From Actinoplanes sichuanensis (GTDB lineage Bacteria; Actinomycetota; Actinomycetes; Mycobacteriales; Micromonosporaceae), in the NCBI RefSeq assembly GCF_033097365.1, contig NZ_AP028461.1, positions 6,448,001 through 6,512,000 of the forward strand: 64,000 nt of DNA, written 5' to 3'. Each line of letters starts with the position of its first letter. The first letter of the stretch is position 1. A model generated the notes under the pieces. The model was not told the origin of the DNA. It did not search any database and saw only the letters and a list, made by a program, of their open reading frames with translations. The position numbers and the translations under genes are program-made. Below are positions 3,612 to 17,914 of the stretch, piece after piece.

Positions 3612-4721
3612 TCACGCGCCGGTGGGCAGGGTCGCCAGCACCCGGGTGCCCTGGCCGAGGGCGCTGTGCACCACGCAGCCGCCGCCGAACGCGGCGAGCC
3701 GTTCCCGCACCGCGGCCAGACCGAACCCGCGGCCGGCGGCGCTGGCGGCAACGGAGTCGAAACCCACCCCGTCGTCGCGGACCTCTACAGTGATCACCTC
3801 ACGCCGGTGATCGAGTGTGATCCAGATGTTCGTGGCACCGGCATGCTCGACCGCGTTGGCCAACAACCCCTGAACCACCCGCAGCAGCGCGGTGGCCCGG
3901 TCGGTGGCGGGTTCGCCGGGTTCGCCGCGGGTGGCGAAGACGATCTGCGGCGCCCCGTCGTGATTGCGGGAACACAGCTCGCGCACGGCTGCGACCAGTC
4001 CGGCACGCTCCAGCGTGGGCGGCGTCAGGTCGTCGATAATACTTCGGGTTTCGGCCAGGCTGGCGCCGAGGGCCTCGCTCACCACCCGCACCTGCCGGCG
4101 AGCCGCCTCCGGGCGGCGATCCCAGTCACGATCGGCGGCCTGGAGCAACATCCGGTTGCCGGCCAGCTCCTGGGCAACCGCGTCGTGCAGGTCGCGGGCG
4201 ATCCGGGCCCGTTCGGCAAGACGGCCGGCCTCGCGCTGTTGCCGGGCCGGCTCACCGTGAGCTGCGCGCAGCTCACCGACCAGCCGCTGCTGCATCCGGT
4301 AGAGGCCGACCGTGGTCCAGACCGCGGCGACCGGCGGGGCCAGCAGATCGAGCCGCAGGCCGCTGCCGACTCGGACCAGGCAGACGACCAGAGCCGCGGT
4401 GATCAGGGCGACGACGGCGACGGCCCGGTACTCGCCGAACATCCGCAGAGCGAGCACGGCCAACGGCACGACGAGCCAGGCGTAACCGGCCGCAAGGTGG
4501 GCCGGAAGAATCCAGCAGGCCCAGCACCACAGGATGAGCAGTGCGGTCAGCCAGGCATGACGAATCGCCGGGCGTAGCCGCTCCCAGCAGGCCAGCCCGA
4601 TTCCGTAGGAGACGGTGAGCAGAACGATCGGTGGCGCGACTTCCCAGCACAGCTCACTGGACACCACCGCGAGACGCCCGATGGTAGTGATCACCATCGC
4701 ACCGAACAACACGTGCGGCAC
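3612..4721 (-). CDS. NarL-type sensor histidine kinase (5' end possibly rearranged)
   Basis: 369-residue membrane kinase, partner of the downstream response regulator. About four or five hydrophobic segments fill residues 1-135, then a short coiled linker. The HisKA_3 dimerisation motif follows (RARIARDLHDAVAQEL, with the phospho-accepting His). The HATPase has LLANAVEHAGA (N box), DDGVGFD and GFGLAAVRERL. The GTG at 4721 is the annotated start. The frame extends only six codons upstream (SLFRLV, still hydrophobic) to a TAG at the junction with a truncated lectin gene, so some N-terminal residues and the native promoter may be lost. Confidence 0.88.
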   Translation of the reverse strand: MPHVLFGAMVITTIGRLAVVSSELCWEVAPPIVLLTVSYGIGLACWERLRPAIRHAWLTALLILWCWACWILPAHLAAGYAWLVVPLAVLALRMFGEYRAVAVVALITAALVVCLVRVGSGLRLDLLAPPVAAVWTTVGLYRMQQRLVGELRAAHGEPARQQREAGRLAERARIARDLHDAVAQELAGNRMLLQAADRDWDRRPEAARRQVRVVSEALGASLAETRSIIDDLTPPTLERAGLVAAVRELCSRNHDGAPQIVFATRGEPGEPATDRATALLRVVQGLLANAVEHAGATNIWITLDHRREVITVEVRDDGVGFDSVAASAAGRGFGLAAVRERLAAFGGGCVVHSALGQGTRVLATLPTGA

Positions 4722-9640: not shown

Positions 9641-9948
9641 TACCTACATAGGCCAGGCCTCACTGGCCTGCCACCGCATCGCCAACAGACAGCACCGGGT
9701 CCGAGCAGACACGTAGTGCGCGTCTGGTCGCAAAGCTGAGCAAGTCGATGACAGGTATGGATCTCCCGCCTGGAGCTGCTACGCACCCTCAAAGCGGTAC
9801 ACGCCGTCTACGCTCCATCGGTTCAGCGCTTACTCATGGTGCAGTCAGGATCGGGTCACTCGAACCGCAGTTCCTCGGTGCGTGAGATGCAGCAGGCGGC
9901 CGGCAGTACCGGGTGGGGGTCTCGCGCCGGCGATATTCTTGGGTGGAC

Positions 9949-11214
9949 ATGGAGTTTCGAATCCTCGGACCGCTCGAGGTACTTCGCGGTTCGGAACGGA
10001 TCGTGCTGGGCAGGCGCCGCGGGGAGCGCTGCCTGCTCGGCCTCCTTCTGCTCGACGCCGGTGAGGTGGTTCCGCTCGACCGGCTCGTCGATCTCCTCTG
10101 GGACGGCGATCCTCCCGTTACGGCACGGGGCACGGTCATGACCCACATCGCCCGACTGCGGTCGCTGCTCGACCCGCACCGCGATGGCCGCTTGGGCGTA
10201 CGCATCATCCGGGTCGGTGACGGATATCTGATCGACGTCGGCGCTGCCACGGTGGATGTCTGTCGGTTCCGGGAGCTGTACGAGCGGGCGAGGAACACCG
10301 CGGGGGTGGCCGAACAGTCGGCGTTGCTTCGCGAGGCGTTGCAGTTGTGGCGCGGTCCGTTGCTCGCCGACGTCGCGTCCGAGCGGGTACGGCAACGTGC
10401 CGCGACCGGTCTGGACGAGTTGCGCCTGTCGGTGCTGGAGTCCTGGGCGGACGCGGAGTTGGCGTGCGGCCGGGCGTCTCAGGTGATCGCTGCGTTGGCC
10501 GATACGGTACGCCGCCAGCCACAACGGGAGCGGCTGGTCGGCGCGTTGATGCTCGCGCTGCACCAGGAAGGGCGGCAAGCCGAGGCCCTGACCGTCTACC
10601 GTCGGACCCTCGACCTCCTCGGTGGGCGACTCGGGCTGGAACCGGAGCCGGACCTGCGCCGGCTGCACGCGTGGATCGCGCAGGACAGGCCGACGGTTCA
10701 ACTGCCGCCGCTCGCCGGTGGGCCGGACGCTTTGCGGCGGCTCGACGCGATCCTGGCCGCGCATGCCGGTGACCTCGGGCCGACCGTGGTGGTCATCTCG
10801 GCCGCGGCCGGTGCCGGCAAGTCGACCCTGGCCGTGCACTGGGGCCGTCGGGCACGACAGCAGTTCCCCGACGGCCAGCTCCATGTCGACCTCCGTGGGC
10901 GTACGGCTGCGTCAGCACTGCGGCCGATCGAGGCCCTCACCGTTCTCTTGCGGGCTCTCGGCCTGCCGGCGGACCGAATTCCCGCCGATGTGGACCAGGC
11001 GGCCTGCGTCTACCGCAGTTCGGTGGCCGGTCGCCGGCTGCTGCTGGTCCTCGACGACGCCCGCGATCCGGAACAGGTGCGCCCGCTGCTGCCCGGCGAT
11101 CCGGGCATCATGGTGTTGATCACCAGCCGTAACCGGCTGGGCGGGCTGGTCGCTATCGAGGGCGCACATCGGCTGACCTGCGATACGGCGCACTCGCTGC
11201 GTTCCGCACCCTAG
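9949..11214 (+). CDS. AfsR/SARP-family regulator, truncated in its NB-ARC domain
   Basis: 421 residues. It has an N-terminal OmpR-like winged helix (MEFRILGPLEVLRG, GERCLLGLLLLDAGEVV, DLLWDGDPPVTARG), then a bacterial transcriptional activation domain (to ~240), then the start of an NTPase (ISAAAGAGKSTLAVHWG Walker A, LLLVLDDARDPEQ Walker B, LITSRNRLGGL). Homology stops after GAHRLT. The full paralogue at 15059 continues for another ~500 residues through the rest of the NTPase and TPRs. The 3' end overlaps the last 62 bp of the convergent S26 peptidase gene. The DNA-binding half could still act. ATG 9949 was chosen because the SARP N-terminus begins exactly there. Confidence 0.85.
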   Translation: MEFRILGPLEVLRGSERIVLGRRRGERCLLGLLLLDAGEVVPLDRLVDLLWDGDPPVTARGTVMTHIARLRSLLDPHRDGRLGVRIIRVGDGYLIDVGAATVDVCRFRELYERARNTAGVAEQSALLREALQLWRGPLLADVASERVRQRAATGLDELRLSVLESWADAELACGRASQVIAALADTVRRQPQRERLVGALMLALHQEGRQAEALTVYRRTLDLLGGRLGLEPEPDLRRLHAWIAQDRPTVQLPPLAGGPDALRRLDAILAAHAGDLGPTVVVISAAAGAGKSTLAVHWGRRARQQFPDGQLHVDLRGRTAASALRPIEALTVLLRALGLPADRIPADVDQAACVYRSSVAGRRLLLVLDDARDPEQVRPLLPGDPGIMVLITSRNRLGGLVAIEGAHRLTCDTAHSLRSAP

Positions 11215-11665
11215 CCACCCCCAGGACCCTCTCGTACGGGAGAAAGCCGAACCGTCGGGAGTCGTTGGGATGCGTCGGGTTGTCGCTGAGCACGGTGAGC
11301 ACGCCCGCGGGCACTCGGCCGTCCGGGGTGTGGCACCGTCCCGGCAGCCCCGGCGGAATCGGATCGCCGGCCACCGCGGTGCACCGTTTGATCATCCAGA
11401 TGCGCCGGTCCCGTACCCCCGCGGCGGCTGTGGCCCGGTAGCCGCCGTCGTCGCTGTCCGGGTGCTCCAGAACGACGATCTGCCCTGGTCGGACCTGGGC
11501 ACCGGACAGACGCCGGACCAGGACGCGGTCACCGTCGCGGAGAGTGGGGAGCATGCTCGCGCCCCGAACGGTGACCAGGACGAGTCGTCGGCGCTGGACC
11601 AGGACCGTCGCACCGAGCAGACCGGCCGTGCCGAGCACCCCGATGAGCAGCATCCATCCGGTCAT
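11153..11665 (-). CDS. S26-family signal peptidase
   Basis: 170-residue type I signal-peptidase-like enzyme. One N-terminal membrane helix (MLLIGVLGTAGLLGATVLV) comes first. The catalytic Ser lies in VRGASMLPTLRDGD, the Lys base in IWMIKRCTAVAGD, and the C-terminal box in LSDNPTHPNDSRRFG. It should cleave exported proteins after an AxA-type site on the outer face of the membrane. The ATG overlaps the ABC transporter stop (ATGA), so it is the last gene of the Cys-rich-peptide operon. A dedicated peptidase there suggests that it processes the operon's precursor, whose leader ends in DAQA. Confidence 0.88.
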   Translation of the reverse strand: MTGWMLLIGVLGTAGLLGATVLVQRRRLVLVTVRGASMLPTLRDGDRVLVRRLSGAQVRPGQIVVLEHPDSDDGGYRATAAAGVRDRRIWMIKRCTAVAGDPIPPGLPGRCHTPDGRVPAGVLTVLSDNPTHPNDSRRFGFLPYERVLGVARVRNAASAPYRRSADVRPR

Positions 11666-13518
11666 CGCCGCACCATCGGCTGGTGTACGTCCTCGCCGGG
11701 GCGGGCTTCGCGATAGCCCCGGGCCTGGAGAGTGAACAGGCCGGAGTAGACCCCACCGGCCGCGAGCAGGGAATCGTGGTGGCCGGTCTCCACGACGACA
11801 CCGTCCTGCAGGACCACGATCCGGTCGGCATCCCGCACCGCGCTGAGCCGGTGTGAGACGAGCAGGCTGGTACGTCCCTGTCGATGCCGGGCGAGCTGGG
11901 TGTGGATCTGCTGTTCGGCCTCGGGGTCCAGTCCGGAGCTGGGCTCGTCCAGGATCAGCAGGTCCGGTCCTCCCTTGACGAGCGCGCGGGCCAGGGCGAC
12001 CCGCTGCCACTGCCCGCCGGAGAGCACCACGCCGGCGTCCGGACCGGACTCGCCGGTGAAGATCCGGGTGAGCTGGGTGGAGTACCCCTGCGGCAGCCGG
12101 CTGAGGACGTGGTGGATCCCGGCGCGGTCCGCGGCCTCCTGGACGCGACGCGACTCCTGCTCTCCGGCCACGTCGGCCAGGGCGATGTTCTCCTCGGCGG
12201 ACAGGTCGTAGTTCATGTAGTCCTGGAACACGACGCTGAGCCGGGCTCGCAGATCCTCGATGGTGAATTCCCGAATGTCGACGCCGTCCCACAGCACCGC
12301 CCCGCGGGTCGGGTCGTAGAACCGGCAGAGCAGTTTGACCAGCGTGCTCTTGCCCGATCCGTTGCGCCCCACAAGCGCCACCGACCCGCCGCACGGGATC
12401 GTCAGGTTCACTCCGCGCAGCGCCCACGGGTGCTCCGGGCCGTACCGGAACCACACGTCCCGCAGCTCGATCCCGCGCCTCAGCGGCGGCGCCGCGCGCC
12501 CCGGGACGGCTCGCGGGAGATCCGATGGATGGGCCTGGACGGCAGCGTGATGCGCGAAGAGCAACAACGACTGCTGAACCCGGGCAGCGTCCGAGATCCC
12601 CCGGCCCAACGCGGCCTGCACGCCGGCCACCGACGCGATGAACATCGTGACGTCGCCGGCGCTGAGCCGTCCGTCGGCCGCCGCGCGGACCGCCCACAGC
12701 AGCCCTACGCCCGCCACCACGGCGGCGGTCAGGGCCAGTCCGCCGTGCACGACCAGGGTGCGCCGGTCCAATCGGTCCTCGACGGAGTGCGCGGCGAGTC
12801 GCTCCGCGCGCATCCGGCTCCGCAGGAAGCCGCCGGCGCTGAAGAGCCTGATCTCCTTCGTCGCCTGTACGTCGGTGAGCAGGGTCGCGTAGAACATCTC
12901 CCGCCGGTGCCGAGGGCTGATCTCCCAATAAGCGGCGGCCTGCCCGCGGGCCAGCCATAGTTGCGCGATCAGAGCCGGCACCGCCGAGCCCAGCAACAAC
13001 ACGGTCATCGCCGGACTCAGTACGGCGAGCGAGGCCACGAAGCCGACCACGATCGCCACCGCGCCGAGTAGTCCGAGCACGCTGTCGAGGACCAGGGCGG
13101 GTGCGTTCTCCGCCTGCTGAGCCATCCGCAGCCGGTCCAGGAAAAGCGGGTCCTCGAGGTTCCGCAGTCCCTGCTGGCGCCCCACCGCGGCGTAGAGCCG
13201 ATCCTGGACGAGCAGGCCGGACCGGCGGCTGAGGCGGGCCTGGAGATAGCGGTTGAGCTGGGGCAGGACGGCGGTGCCGGCGGCGGTCGCGGCCAGCCCG
13301 ACCGCAAGACCGAGCACCGCCGAGGGCGCGACCGGGGGTTGAGTGACCCGGTCCAGGATCGACTTGGTGAGCCAGGCCGCCGCCACCGGCGCCACCACTC
13401 CCACCGCAGTCGTCAGGACGTAGGCCGTCACACACCACCGGGCCGGGCGCCAGACCAGTCCCCACACGGCCGGAAGGTGGCTCAGCGCCGCCTTCTCGGC
13501 GTTCGCGGCACCGGTCAT
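11662..13518 (-). CDS. ABC transporter, fused permease and ATPase (peptide exporter type)
   Basis: 618-residue half-transporter. Residues ~1-330 form a six-helix membrane domain; the rest is a nucleotide-binding domain with Walker A (LVGRNGSGKSTLVKLL), Q-loop (VFQDYMNYD), signature LSGGQWQRVALARAL, Walker B (LLILDEPSSGLD) and H-switch (LLVSHRLSAV). There is no N-terminal C39 peptidase domain, unlike bacteriocin exporters that trim GG leaders; a separate S26 peptidase follows instead. This architecture is common for lantibiotic-type and other RiPP export. The start overlaps the stop of the thioredoxin-fold gene by 4 nt. Confidence 0.9.
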   Translation of the reverse strand: MTGAANAEKAALSHLPAVWGLVWRPARWCVTAYVLTTAVGVVAPVAAAWLTKSILDRVTQPPVAPSAVLGLAVGLAATAAGTAVLPQLNRYLQARLSRRSGLLVQDRLYAAVGRQQGLRNLEDPLFLDRLRMAQQAENAPALVLDSVLGLLGAVAIVVGFVASLAVLSPAMTVLLLGSAVPALIAQLWLARGQAAAYWEISPRHRREMFYATLLTDVQATKEIRLFSAGGFLRSRMRAERLAAHSVEDRLDRRTLVVHGGLALTAAVVAGVGLLWAVRAAADGRLSAGDVTMFIASVAGVQAALGRGISDAARVQQSLLLFAHHAAVQAHPSDLPRAVPGRAAPPLRRGIELRDVWFRYGPEHPWALRGVNLTIPCGGSVALVGRNGSGKSTLVKLLCRFYDPTRGAVLWDGVDIREFTIEDLRARLSVVFQDYMNYDLSAEENIALADVAGEQESRRVQEAADRAGIHHVLSRLPQGYSTQLTRIFTGESGPDAGVVLSGGQWQRVALARALVKGGPDLLILDEPSSGLDPEAEQQIHTQLARHRQGRTSLLVSHRLSAVRDADRIVVLQDGVVVETGHHDSLLAAGGVYSGLFTLQARGYREARPGEDVHQPMVRR

Positions 13519-14057
13519 GCGAGCGCGGCGATCTGGATCTGCTGCGGCCGGTACGCCGACGACCGTACGACACCGGTCTCCCCGATCACGTAGTAGACCG
13601 GGTAGCCGCTCACCTCGAACGCCCGCGCCATCGGGCCGTCCTCCGGATCGAACAGCACCTGAGAGACCGGTCCCAGCTGTGCCACCATCGGCGCGGCCTC
13701 AGCGGCGGTGCCCGCCACCACGGCGAGCACACGGTGCCGCCCGCCCGGGGTGTCGCGGGCCAATTGCAGGAACGCGGGAAGGTTCTCCTCGCACGGCGGA
13801 CAGCCGGGCTTCATGAAGGCGACCACGGTGTCGCCGGTCAACACGTCACGGCTCACCGGCTCGCCGTCGACGGTGGTGGCCGTGAAGCCGCCGACACGCT
13901 CACCGGCGGGAATCAAGCCCGGCGATGCGACGCTGCCACCGCCGGCCGCGAGCATGGCCGTGTGCGTGCGCAGGCGCCTGATCACGCCGAGCATCAGCAG
14001 CAGGTTCAGGGCGGTGACCACGCTGAGGAGCACCAGGGCGGCGATTACGTACGTCAT
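13515..14057 (-). CDS. Membrane-anchored thioredoxin-fold protein (MauD/TlpA-like)
   Basis: 180 residues. An N-terminal membrane anchor (VIAALVLLSVVTALNLLLMLGVI) is followed by an extracytoplasmic thioredoxin fold with the redox centre GCPPCEENLPAF (CPPC) and a late YPVYYVIGETGVV containing the conserved cis-Pro region. In methylamine dehydrogenase clusters, MauD with a CPxC site works with MauE to install disulfides in the light chain. Here the neighbours are a MauE-like protein and a Cys-rich precursor, suggesting the same job. AAGGA precedes ATG 14057, supporting this start although the upstream frame overlaps it. Confidence 0.87.
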   Translation of the reverse strand: MTYVIAALVLLSVVTALNLLLMLGVIRRLRTHTAMLAAGGGSVASPGLIPAGERVGGFTATTVDGEPVSRDVLTGDTVVAFMKPGCPPCEENLPAFLQLARDTPGGRHRVLAVVAGTAAEAAPMVAQLGPVSQVLFDPEDGPMARAFEVSGYPVYYVIGETGVVRSSAYRPQQIQIAALA

Positions 14058-14613
14058 CGGAAGTCCTTGTCGTCGGAGAGTGCCGGGGCGGCGGCACGGC
14101 GGTGAACAGCTCGATGAGATCGTCGAGGCAGATGATCAGCACGGCGGCGGTGATGCCGGCGACTGCCGCGATCAGCACCCCGGCCGGGTCCGTTCCGTTG
14201 CCGGCGGGTCCGGTCAGGCCGATCACGGCCGCGCCCGCCAGCAGGCCGTTACGCAGCAGATGCCAGTGGCTGAGCGGGGATTCCCGGTGGCCGAAGCAGC
14301 GGCACGGCGCGGGCGTGCCCCGCACCAGAGCGACGGCCACTCCGGCCGTCAGCACGCCGAGCAGGCCCAGCGCGACGGTGAAGCCGGCAGCGGCGGTGCC
14401 GTCGGCGATGAGCAGCACGGGCACGGCCGCCTCGGTGAGGCCCAGAGCGACCGCGACGGACGCCACCGTCCGGGCGGGCATCAGGCGCAGCTGACGCAGC
14501 GACTCGGTGAAGTCGCGCATCCTCGTGCGGGAGCTCAGTTTGCCCAGGGCCGCCGCTACGAACACGGCGCCGAGCAGGACTCGACATGCCGTCGAGAGAT
14601 ACATCGCGACCAT
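13900..14613 (-). CDS. MauE/DoxX-like redox membrane protein (probable 3' frameshift)
   Basis: 237 residues as read. Four or so membrane helices fill residues 1-180 (CRVLLGAVFVAAALGKL, VALGLLGVLTAGVAVALVRG, GVLIAAVAGITAAVLIICLDDLI). A Cys pair lies in APCRCFGH, as in MauE proteins that pass reducing equivalents to a partner. The last ~50 residues are Arg/Pro-rich and overlap the thioredoxin-fold gene by 158 bp. Adding one C in the C-run near 14085 would instead end the protein at PALSDDKDFR with an ATGA overlap to the next gene. The protein probably ends there, with a one-base deletion or sequence error. Confidence 0.82.
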   Translation of the reverse strand: MVAMYLSTACRVLLGAVFVAAALGKLSSRTRMRDFTESLRQLRLMPARTVASVAVALGLTEAAVPVLLIADGTAAAGFTVALGLLGVLTAGVAVALVRGTPAPCRCFGHRESPLSHWHLLRNGLLAGAAVIGLTGPAGNGTDPAGVLIAAVAGITAAVLIICLDDLIELFTAVPPPRHSPTTRTSDDVRNRRPGAPQRGHRPEPAADARRDQAPAHAHGHARGRRWQRRIAGLDSRR

Positions 14614-14668: not shown

Positions 14669-14917
14669 TCAGCACAGGCCGGCGTTGCGCCAGACCTGCC
14701 GGTAGACGTAGCAGCCCTCGAAAGTCTCCGTGTAGCAGTTGTAGAGCTGCTCTGCGCCGTGGCTGGTGCACCGGTAGATGCCGGTCCCACAGCAGCTTCC
14801 GCAGCAGGCTGCCTGTGCGTCCGCCCGCGGGAGGAACCGACCGAACAGACGGTCGCCGATCCGCTCCACTGCGGTCGGCCGGCTGCCGGCCGTCACCTTC
14901 GATGTGAGTCGTCTCAT
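14669..14917 (-). CDS. Cys-rich secreted peptide precursor (candidate MauA-like or new RiPP-like substrate)
   Basis: 82 residues from ATG 14917, preceded by GAAAGGG (a GTG at 14932 would add five). Residues 1-36 are a basic leader without a hydrophobic core (MRRLTSKVTAGSRP..., ending RADAQA). Residues 37-82 carry eight cysteines (38, 39, 42, 43, 50, 61, 69, 82) and five tyrosines, starting ACCGSCCGTG and ending NAGLC. Eight Cys in 46 residues implies four disulfides, or modification. The gene opens an operon with MauE-like, thioredoxin-fold, ABC exporter and S26 peptidase genes. The leader is loosely reminiscent of methylamine dehydrogenase light-chain leaders, but the core is far shorter. 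Function unknown; I infer it is the operon's substrate. Confidence 0.75.
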   Translation of the reverse strand: MRRLTSKVTAGSRPTAVERIGDRLFGRFLPRADAQAACCGSCCGTGIYRCTSHGAEQLYNCYTETFEGCYVYRQVWRNAGLC

Positions 14918-15058: not shown

Positions 15059-17914
15059 ATGGACTTCTTCGTGCTCGGACCGCTGGTCGTCCGCGATCGG
15101 GACGAGCCCGTCCGGCTCTGCCCTCGCCGGCGCGAGCGCTGTCTGCTCGGCCTGCTGCTGCTGGAGCCGGGCCGGCCGGTGACCGCGGGCCGCCTGGTCG
15201 ACCTGCTCTGGGACGGCGAGCCGCCGGCCCGCGCCGAGGCGATGCTGCGCAGTCACGTCTCGCGGTTGCGCAGCTCGTTGTCCGGCCTGAACGAGGTACG
15301 ACTGCGCCGCCAGGGCGCGGCCTACCTGCTGGAGGTGGCGCCGGACCGGGTGGACGTACACCGGTTCACCGCCCTGGTGCGAACGGCCTCGCAGGTGACC
15401 GGCCCGGACCGCCGCAGCCGGATTCTGCGCGAGGCGTTGGGGCTGTGGCGCGGGAACCTGCTGGCGGACATCGCCTCCGACCGGCTGCGGGATCGGGTGG
15501 GCGAAGACCTGACGGAGGCACGCCTGGGCGCCGCCGAGGATCTCTTCGAGGCCGAGCTCGCCTGTGGATGGCATGACCAGGCGGTTCCGGCACTCACCGA
15601 CCTGGTCGCGGATCATCCGTACCGTGAGCGGCTGATCTCGCTGCTCATGCTGGCGCTGTACCGTTCGGGTCGGCAGACCGACGCCCTGGAGGTCTACCGC
15701 CGCGCCCTGGCCCGGCTGGCCGGCGATCTGGGCATTTCGCCGGGTGCCGGCCTGCGCCGTCTGCACGAGGCGGTGCTCTGCCGTGATCCGGAGATCGACC
15801 CGCCGCTCACCTCGAGCGGCTCCACTCCGCTCGCCTCCCCTGTGGTGCCGGCTCAGCTCCCCGCGGCGCCGCGGCACTTCTTCGGTCGGGAGGGCGATCT
15901 CGCCGCGCTCGCCGCGGCCGGTACCGGTGCCGCACTCGTCACCGTCGAGGGGGCAGCCGGAGTCGGCAAAACCGCTCTCGTCCTGCGTTGGGCGGCCGCC
16001 GCCCGCAGACGGTTCACCGACGGCCAGCTCTTCGTCGACCTGCGTGGGTTCGCCGCCGAAGCGCTCCTGTCGCCCTCCGACGTCCTGTCACAACTACTCC
16101 GCGCGCTCGGCGTCCCCGCTGCCGACCTGCCCGCCGACACCGCTACGGCGGCGGCGAGATTCCGGGCGGTCGTCGGCTGGCGACGAATGTTGATCCTGCT
16201 CGACAACGCCGCCGGCGCCGAACAGGTCCGACCGCTGCTGCCCGCCGGGCCCCGGTGCGTCGTGGTGATCACCAGCCGCAACCGGCTGGCCGATCTACCC
16301 GGGGCCGGGAAGGCCGTCCGGATCACGCTGGGCCCCCTGCCCGTGAGCGACGCGATGGGTCTGCTGCGAGCGTTCCTAGGCACCGAGCGCATGGACCAGA
16401 GCCCGGGCGCGGCGAACGCACTCTCCCGCGCCTGCGGCCACCTCCCGCTGGCGCTGCGGATCGCGGCGGCCAATCTCGCCGACGACCCGGGCCGGTCCAT
16501 CGCCTCCTACCTGCAGGAGGCGGCCGCGACCGGCCTTTCCGCATGGAGCGTCGAAGGCGATCCCCACGCCGCGGTGCGACGAGCCTTCGACCTCTCGTAC
16601 GCGAAACTGGCACCCCCGGCCGCCCGCCTCTTCCGGTTGTCGGGCCTCGGTCCCGGCCCGATCCTGTCGATCACGGCCGCGGCCGCGCTGGCCGGCGGCA
16701 ACGTCGACGAGACCCGGGCGCTGATGCGGGTGCTGACCGACGCGCACCTCGTGGAGGCCGGTCGACCCGGCCGGTACGAGATGCACGACCTCATCGCGTT
16801 GCACGCGCGGGAACGGCTGTCCACCGACGAGCCGGCCGCGCACCGGGAAGCGGCCCGTGCACGGCTTTTCGGCTGGTATCTCGGCGTCTTCCACGCGGCC
16901 CACGCGCTTCTCGCACCACACCGGCGGACGCTGCCGGTCACCTCGCCCGATCCACCCGTCCCGCCGGAGTTCCCCGTCACCTGGGAGACGGCCCTGACGT
17001 TCCTGGACGCGGAACGCCCCGGCCTCGTCGCGTTGATCCGCTCCGCCGCCGCAGCCGCACTGGACGAACCCGCCTGGCAGCTGGCGTACCTGCTGGGGCC
17101 CTACTTTCAGCTCCGCGGTGACGGCCCGGACAGCCTCGAGATCTATCGGATCGGGCTCGGCGCGGCCCAGCGGGTCGGCAGCCCGTCGGCCCAGGCCGCG
17201 CTGCACAACAGCGCCGGGATCGCCTACGCGACGGCACACCGGCTGCCGGAGGCGGCCGAACACCTGTCTCGTGCCGTCGCGCTGTTCCGCGAAGGCGGGC
17301 AGGCCGACGCCGAGGCCGGCGCGCTGACCAACCTGGGCCGCCTCCTGGCCGAGCAGAACCATCTGCCTGAGGCTCGGGCGGCGTTCGAACGGGCGGTGCG
17401 GCTGCGGGCCGGCAGCGGCGACGCGGCACGGCTCGGCTTCATCCTGAACAATCTCGGCGGAACGCTGGCGGCGATGGGTGAGACCCGCCGGGCCGATCGA
17501 TGCCTGAGGCTCGCGCTGGCGCTGCATCGCCGCAACGGTGACCTGGCCGGGGAGGGCAACACGCTGGACAGCATCGGCGCCCTGCAGCTGGAGACCGGCG
17601 CGGTGCAGGAGGCACTCGTCAGCCTGCACACCGCCCTCGACGTCCTGCGCGCGGCGGGCTACCGAGAGGCCGAGGGAGTGACGCTCGCCAACCTGGGGCG
17701 GGCGTACCTGCGCCGGGGAGACACCACGGCGGCCGTCGGATATCTGCGCCGGGCCGCCGACCACTACGACGAGGCGAGCGACTGGCACCGAGCCGAGCAG
17801 ATCCGCCACGAGCTGGATGCCCTGGTCGGCGGATCCTCGCCCGAGGATGCCGATGAGACCGGGGATCTCGACCAGCCTGGTCCCGCTACGGTCGGAGATC
17901 AATCAGATGGGTAG
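15059..17914 (+). CDS. AfsR/SARP-family regulator, full length (SARP-NTPase-TPR)
   Basis: 951 residues. The winged helix and activation domain (1-~245) are near copies in pattern of the truncated regulator at 9949 (RRRERCLLGLLLLEPGRPV, DLLWDGEPPARAEAML). A STAND/NB-ARC NTPase follows (FFGREGDLAALA, VEGAAGVGKTALVLRW Walker A, LILLDNAAGAEQ Walker B, VVITSRNRLADL, ACGHLPLALRIAA). Several TPRs end the protein (LHNSAGIAYATAHRLPEAAEHL, LTNLGRLLAEQNHLPEARAAF, LNNLGGTLAAMGE, LANLGRAYLRRGDT). Such proteins activate secondary-metabolite or peptide clusters. It is divergent from the Cys-rich-peptide operon and is the best candidate for its activator. Confidence 0.93.
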   Translation: MDFFVLGPLVVRDRDEPVRLCPRRRERCLLGLLLLEPGRPVTAGRLVDLLWDGEPPARAEAMLRSHVSRLRSSLSGLNEVRLRRQGAAYLLEVAPDRVDVHRFTALVRTASQVTGPDRRSRILREALGLWRGNLLADIASDRLRDRVGEDLTEARLGAAEDLFEAELACGWHDQAVPALTDLVADHPYRERLISLLMLALYRSGRQTDALEVYRRALARLAGDLGISPGAGLRRLHEAVLCRDPEIDPPLTSSGSTPLASPVVPAQLPAAPRHFFGREGDLAALAAAGTGAALVTVEGAAGVGKTALVLRWAAAARRRFTDGQLFVDLRGFAAEALLSPSDVLSQLLRALGVPAADLPADTATAAARFRAVVGWRRMLILLDNAAGAEQVRPLLPAGPRCVVVITSRNRLADLPGAGKAVRITLGPLPVSDAMGLLRAFLGTERMDQSPGAANALSRACGHLPLALRIAAANLADDPGRSIASYLQEAAATGLSAWSVEGDPHAAVRRAFDLSYAKLAPPAARLFRLSGLGPGPILSITAAAALAGGNVDETRALMRVLTDAHLVEAGRPGRYEMHDLIALHARERLSTDEPAAHREAARARLFGWYLGVFHAAHALLAPHRRTLPVTSPDPPVPPEFPVTWETALTFLDAERPGLVALIRSAAAAALDEPAWQLAYLLGPYFQLRGDGPDSLEIYRIGLGAAQRVGSPSAQAALHNSAGIAYATAHRLPEAAEHLSRAVALFREGGQADAEAGALTNLGRLLAEQNHLPEARAAFERAVRLRAGSGDAARLGFILNNLGGTLAAMGETRRADRCLRLALALHRRNGDLAGEGNTLDSIGALQLETGAVQEALVSLHTALDVLRAAGYREAEGVTLANLGRAYLRRGDTTAAVGYLRRAADHYDEASDWHRAEQIRHELDALVGGSSPEDADETGDLDQPGPATVGDQSDG

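Follow-up and report, generated by a model that had tools for sequence, protein, structure and literature searches.

A small open reading frame at the head of an operon in Actinoplanes sichuanensis encodes a cysteine-rich peptide that shares its leader with peptides from equivalent loci in other actinobacteria. The comparison of these loci suggests a real and widespread peptide class defined by that leader, the members of which are probably disulfide-rich and exported. As a whole, the findings are best explained, and quite likely correctly so, by a class of disulfide-rich peptides that would be cleaved after an AxA motif and exported by an ABC transporter, with the genes for their maturation encoded in cis.

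In the window (the whole stretch of 64,000 nucleotides analysed here), the precursor ORF lies on the minus strand at 14669-14917 and encodes 82 residues. Its 36-residue leader (14810..14917, minus strand), which includes GDRLFGRFLPRADAQA and has DAQA at its end, precedes a predicted mature core of 46 residues with 8 cysteines (14672..14809, minus strand), the cut after DAQA being a prediction. The sequence AAAGGG is found upstream of the ATG. These coordinates, the length and the eight cysteines in the 46 residues past DAQA had been given by the first-pass annotation and were all borne out; its description of a basic leader ending in DAQA was right about the ending, but the leader is not merely basic and carries the family motif LADRLLxxxVPxxxAxA, here as IGDRLFGRFLPRADAQA. 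No Pfam or NCBIfam family matched the precursor at E 0.1, and structure prediction of the peptide gave no usable fold (pLDDT 45.9). A protein search with the peptide yielded one other protein, P0003, which is 70% identical and keeps all 8 cysteines.

The next four genes on the minus strand encode a MauE/DoxX-type membrane redox protein of 237 residues with a CxC site (13900..14613; PF07291, 8.1e-26), a TlpA/MauD-like membrane-anchored thioredoxin-fold protein with a CPPC motif (13515..14057; AhpC-TSA, 3.7e-10), an ABC exporter with fused membrane and ATPase parts (11662..13518; assigned by profile), and an S26 peptidase with a Ser/Lys dyad (11153..11665). The exporter shows no C39 peptidase domain by Pfam. 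The peptidase scores above the curated signal peptidase I cut-off (TIGR02227, 64.7 bits versus 47), with Ser and Lys aligned, and the TlpA-like protein falls below the cut-off of the MauD equivalog (TIGR02661, 20.1 versus 188.6 bits). Precursor and MauE genes are separated by a gap of 55 nt; MauE and TlpA genes overlap by 158 nt, and overlaps of 4 nt join TlpA to ABC and ABC to S26, the S26 start lying over the ABC stop. The MauE frame runs on for 62 residues past its domain, into the TlpA gene (13900-14057), and because this run-on measures 0-22 residues in 42 other members of the family, the usual MauE stop may have been lost in the window. A full-length AfsR/SARP-type regulator of 951 residues (15059..17914, plus strand) is divergent from the operon; a shorter gene of this type (433 residues, 9913..11214, plus strand), which looks truncated beside the longer one, is convergent and overlaps the 3' end of the S26 gene. 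Profile searches agree with the first-pass annotation on the identities of the four operon proteins, including an exporter without C39, and on the full and shorter regulators on either side. They also agree on the lack of modifying enzymes: no lanthionine, radical-SAM or YcaO enzyme was found among the seven operon-region proteins scanned with Pfam and NCBIfam.

Had the peptide been unconserved in other copies of the operon, the idea of a dedicated system would have fallen. We searched 60 genomes (the own genome and relatives) for MauE at E 1e-6, obtaining 30 matches in 17 genomes, and examined up to 14 kb around each of the 29 loci besides the window. A small cysteine-rich ORF with the same leader is present in 23 of these 29, so the peptide is a conserved partner of the operon, and the pairing of MauE/MauD-type proteins with a small cysteine-rich AxA peptide, first noticed in the window, recurs across loci. 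One locus of the set (L039) holds a weaker precursor candidate. Near the MauE gene of L066, a cysteine-rich ORF (4114-4443) has a more hydrophobic leader, unlike that of the family, and several loci carry at least two precursors per machinery set (L047, L055, L063, L108, L115, L162, L164, L203, L221 and others).

An alignment of 31 precursors gives the leader consensus quoted above, with cores that can hardly be aligned, so that a conserved leader and a variable core stand within one small gene, as in RiPP-type precursors. Searched against NCBIfam and Pfam, these 31 precursors matched no curated RiPP family, giving scattered one-member matches to unrelated families. Cysteine spacing is hypervariable among family members, and the number of cysteines stays even in most: in 51 of 56 first-set precursors, and in 44 of 49 once similar cores were removed (the five odd ones come from L048 and L050, two each, and L053). 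In the last 30 residues of the leader, the longest uncharged run is at most 9 in 47 of the 56, unlike a typical Sec signal. The catalytic sites of the partner proteins are kept throughout the sequences aligned, which were not deduplicated: the CxC of MauE in 46/46, the CxxC of TlpA in 49/49, and in S26 the Ser in 44/44 and the Lys in 43/44.

For an independent test, named genomes were scanned with no query but the ABC exporter, and the best 80 of 590 relatives were analysed. These 80 loci come from Streptomyces, Actinomadura, Nonomuraea, Microbispora, Micromonospora, Lentzea, Amycolatopsis, Nocardia, Nocardiopsis and other genera. By profile, TlpA was detected in 77, S26 in 75 and MauE in 60 of the 80, and a full-leader precursor in 65; TlpA, ABC, S26 and precursor co-occur in 63, and all five components, MauE included, in 48. 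MauE is found in 53 of the 69 loci of at least 12 kb. It was undetected by profile in 20 of the 80, 16 of which are at least 12 kb long, and is therefore not obligatory in cis. The 15 loci without a leader match include L176, L177, L193, L205, L214, L220 and L224, where divergent precursors can be recognised by eye, the short contig pieces L178, L183 and L204, L186 with its ABC gene only, and the odd locus L200; in L173, L223 and L225, no precursor candidate was found by leader profile or by eye. A Streptomyces sub-group has CWQC and CC motifs in the core (L161, L167, L170, L174, L191, L194 and L219).

As a check on circularity, leader positions 1-18 alone were used as the query, with no requirement for cysteines. 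This search returned 46 ORFs in 45 of the 80 loci, with Ala at -3 in 42 and at -1 in 45 of them. Forty-five of the 46 have at least 6 cysteines and an even number; the sole exception, in L231, looks frame-broken. When 4 ORFs with training-like cores are set aside, AxA is present in 38/42 and an even number of cysteines in 41/42. At the threshold applied, the 18-position profile had no match among 13,727 shuffled ORFs; together with the eight cysteines kept in P0003 and the recurrence of the leader at dozens of other loci, this argues against a chance ORF.

The precursor family is patchy in its distribution. Searched against a set of 5.8 billion, the profile of 31 precursors found 33 proteins at E 0.01, counting the query and P0003. 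At E 0.001, the precursor profile matched 6 of 148 genomes of the host class, and a wider profile at E 0.0001 had matches in 2 of the 246 host-phylum genomes and 21 of the 67 host-genus genomes, the own genome being counted each time. The own genome encodes five leader-bearing precursors. Within about 6 kb of two of them (L097 and L098), no convincing MauE/TlpA/ABC/S26 set was found, and a third (L096) has ABC and S26 alone nearby; these three may rely on the machinery of another cluster. Two Streptomyces plasmids carry the arrangement in the gene order of the window operon. On that of Streptomyces atratus (NZ_CP108285.1), a BTAD regulator, a 73-residue hypothetical protein, MauE/DoxX, a hypothetical protein, ABC and S26 follow one another, and on that of Streptomyces sp. 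NBC_00053 (NZ_CP108263.1), a 68-residue hypothetical protein, MauE/DoxX, a hypothetical protein, ABC and S26; the small ORFs bear the family leader, as EALGSNVLERFVPRIDASA and EAMGTALLERVVPSVTADA, respectively. The records of two other matches, in Embleya and Nonomuraea, carry no annotation at that place.

We propose that the window ORF would encode the precursor of a secreted peptide with intramolecular disulfides, probably four, and that the conserved leader would mark it for a dedicated machinery. The TlpA/MauD-like thioredoxin would form or proofread the disulfides, with MauE as its membrane partner where present; the S26 peptidase would cut after AxA, in the window between DAQA and ACC; the ABC exporter would carry the peptide out; and a SARP-type regulator would control the operon. 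Oxidation, cleavage and export in that order are a possible sequence of events, and TlpA and MauE might serve as reductant or isomerase instead of oxidant. Given the hypervariable cores and the patchy occurrence of the clusters, the likeliest role would be that of an antagonistic or signalling natural product.

Disulfides might not be the whole of the chemistry. The leader/core layout is RiPP-like, and clusters of a similar kind are listed among the RiPP candidates of decRiPPter (PMC7794033), so the product could be a RiPP that carries some additional modification not recognised here. Among the best 80 of 590 loci, however, the next most common coding family is that of SARP-type genes (35/80), and once these and ORFs that look antisense are set aside, no group of genes occurs in more than 8 of the 80, in a comparison that would miss proteins below 110 residues and very divergent enzymes; a further modification is on this evidence unlikely. 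The assignment of the cut to the operon's own S26 peptidase has a competitor as well, in which a housekeeping signal peptidase would remove the leader after export and the S26 protein would do something else. A signal-peptidase cut at AxA has been predicted for cinnamycin-type leaders, the cinnamycin site being AFA, and AFA and AYA sites in actinobacterial lantibiotics provide a precedent (PMC2843593, PMC12837462). Against this stand the S26 gene in 75 of the 80 ABC-selected loci and the conservation of Ser and Lys in the aligned set, and we consider such a division of labour distinctly unlikely. Leader removal by the enzymes of the cluster would fit the conserved AxA register, an indirect indication.

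A metal-binding or redox peptide, whose cysteines would bind Zn or Cu or be kept reduced by TlpA and MauE, has little in its favour. TlpA-like proteins can act as reductants, and one of the 31 precursors in each library weakly matched a zinc-ribbon model (TIGR02605, 0.0013; PF09723, 0.0012), but disulfides fit better than one metal site because the cysteine spacing is hypervariable and the number even, and we regard this reading as very improbable. That the product is an enzyme subunit matured like the light chain of methylamine dehydrogenase, rather than a free peptide, is scarcely credible: the position of the CxC in MauE and the presence of a MauD-like partner recall four canonical mau operons, but no amine dehydrogenase gene was found among the operon proteins scanned or in the 14 largest gene groups of the best 80 of 590 loci, and the precursor has no light-chain match (PF02975, E 0.1). 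A search for the large subunit (PF06433) gave no match in the own genome, nor in any control genome, and so has no bearing on this reading.

The charges flanking the membrane segments offer a hint about the side of the membrane on which oxidation and cleavage would take place. In 49 TlpA-like proteins, whose anchor helix is preceded by few K/R and followed by RRLR, the mean K/R count rises from 0.49 ahead of the anchor to 3.65 over the 15 residues that follow it; the corresponding means for 40 S26 proteins are 0.43 and 2.98. The count is higher after than before in 46/49 TlpA-like and 37/40 S26 proteins, with the reverse in two of each; start codons were set by rule in these counts, and true starts may differ. 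Inspected by eye, three ordinary signal peptidases encoded in the own genome show their K/R ahead of the helix. In MauE, whose CxC loop is on the Arg-rich side, the mean is 3.54 in the segment after helix 1 and 2.38 in the CxC loop, with 0.03-0.33 in the opposite loops; the C-terminal tail, predicted on the side of the CxC loop, has 1.28 K/R but 2.21 D/E. By the positive-inside rule, the active sites of all three proteins would thus face the cytoplasm. The four canonical mau operons (L153-L156) served as a control. They have the same CxC in MauE, the anchors of their MauD proteins, preceded by no K/R and followed by about two Arg, show the same pattern in weaker form, and their MauA carries an RR signal compatible with either membrane side. 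Because canonical MauD and MauE share the pattern, the charge evidence is unspecific and the control undecisive, and we treat cytoplasmic oxidation and cleavage before export as a lead rather than a result.

A full inward-facing model for a widespread actinobacterial class, in which MauE, the thioredoxin and S26 would all act from the cytoplasmic side, disulfides and the AxA cut would be made there, and the ABC exporter would release the folded peptide, is accordingly one we hold tentatively and with more doubt than belief. If true, it might explain the Tat-like signal of the methylamine dehydrogenase light chain. The side on which the disulfides of canonical MauA are formed by MauD may merit re-examination.

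A few predictions made in 2020 thus become a defined class, with a leader that can be searched for, a cut site that can be predicted and a core set of genes, spread over many actinobacterial genera (in the best 80 of 590 loci) and at least two Streptomyces plasmids. One leader with ever-changing cores suggests that secreted peptides locked by disulfides form a large class that has hardly been explored. If this is true, evolution would have furnished a large collection of disulfide scaffolds, about 28-55 residues long and each accompanied by dedicated maturation genes, and the function and membrane side of MauE and MauD could be studied in a tractable system.

The first-pass annotation did not recognise the system as described, a view that holds only in part; the idea was partly foreseen in print. 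decRiPPter lists three Streptomyces mauE candidate families, one also with mauD, with precursors of at least 8 cysteines; the clusters had been filtered for genes of peptidases, transporters and regulators, and the families are untested predictions, for which a role of mauE in precursor modification is suggested (PMC7794033). The window has the same arrangement, a mauE gene adjoining a precursor with at least 8 cysteines. A cluster of this kind is also present in Streptomyces viridosporus NRRL 2414 (L206), where the precursor has 6 cysteines; decRiPPter names strain T7A. The available decRiPPter text, confined to Streptomyces, names no shared leader, AxA/S26 link or ABC-TlpA-S26 core (PMC7794033). 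Among the literature matches listed, no other paper treats the theme, and the shared leader, the link between S26 and AxA and the breadth of the class were not found.

Other known systems share parts of the proposed logic. The mau operon of methylamine dehydrogenase likewise combines MauE, with its CxC at the same position, a MauD-like thioredoxin and a cysteine-rich substrate; its substrate MauA, however, forms part of an enzyme and bears a Tat-like RR signal, whereas the window peptide is linked to ABC and S26 genes. Class II bacteriocins with C39 exporters have a leader, disulfides and ABC export, as proposed for the window peptide, but use a double-glycine leader and a C39 peptidase in place of AxA and S26. 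The TMcin RiPPs have their own disulfide-forming, DsbA-like TmcD, a leader protease and export, and differ in a transmembrane-helix precursor, an S2P-type protease and a single disulfide (PMC13252029). The nearest proven logic among the matches listed is the QhpC/QhpD/QhpE/QhpF route to quinohemoprotein amine dehydrogenase, in which a small protein is cross-linked, loses its leader in the cytoplasm and is then exported by an ABC transporter; there, the cross-links are thioether bonds made by a radical-SAM enzyme, the protease is subtilisin-like, and the product is an enzyme subunit (PMC7876137).
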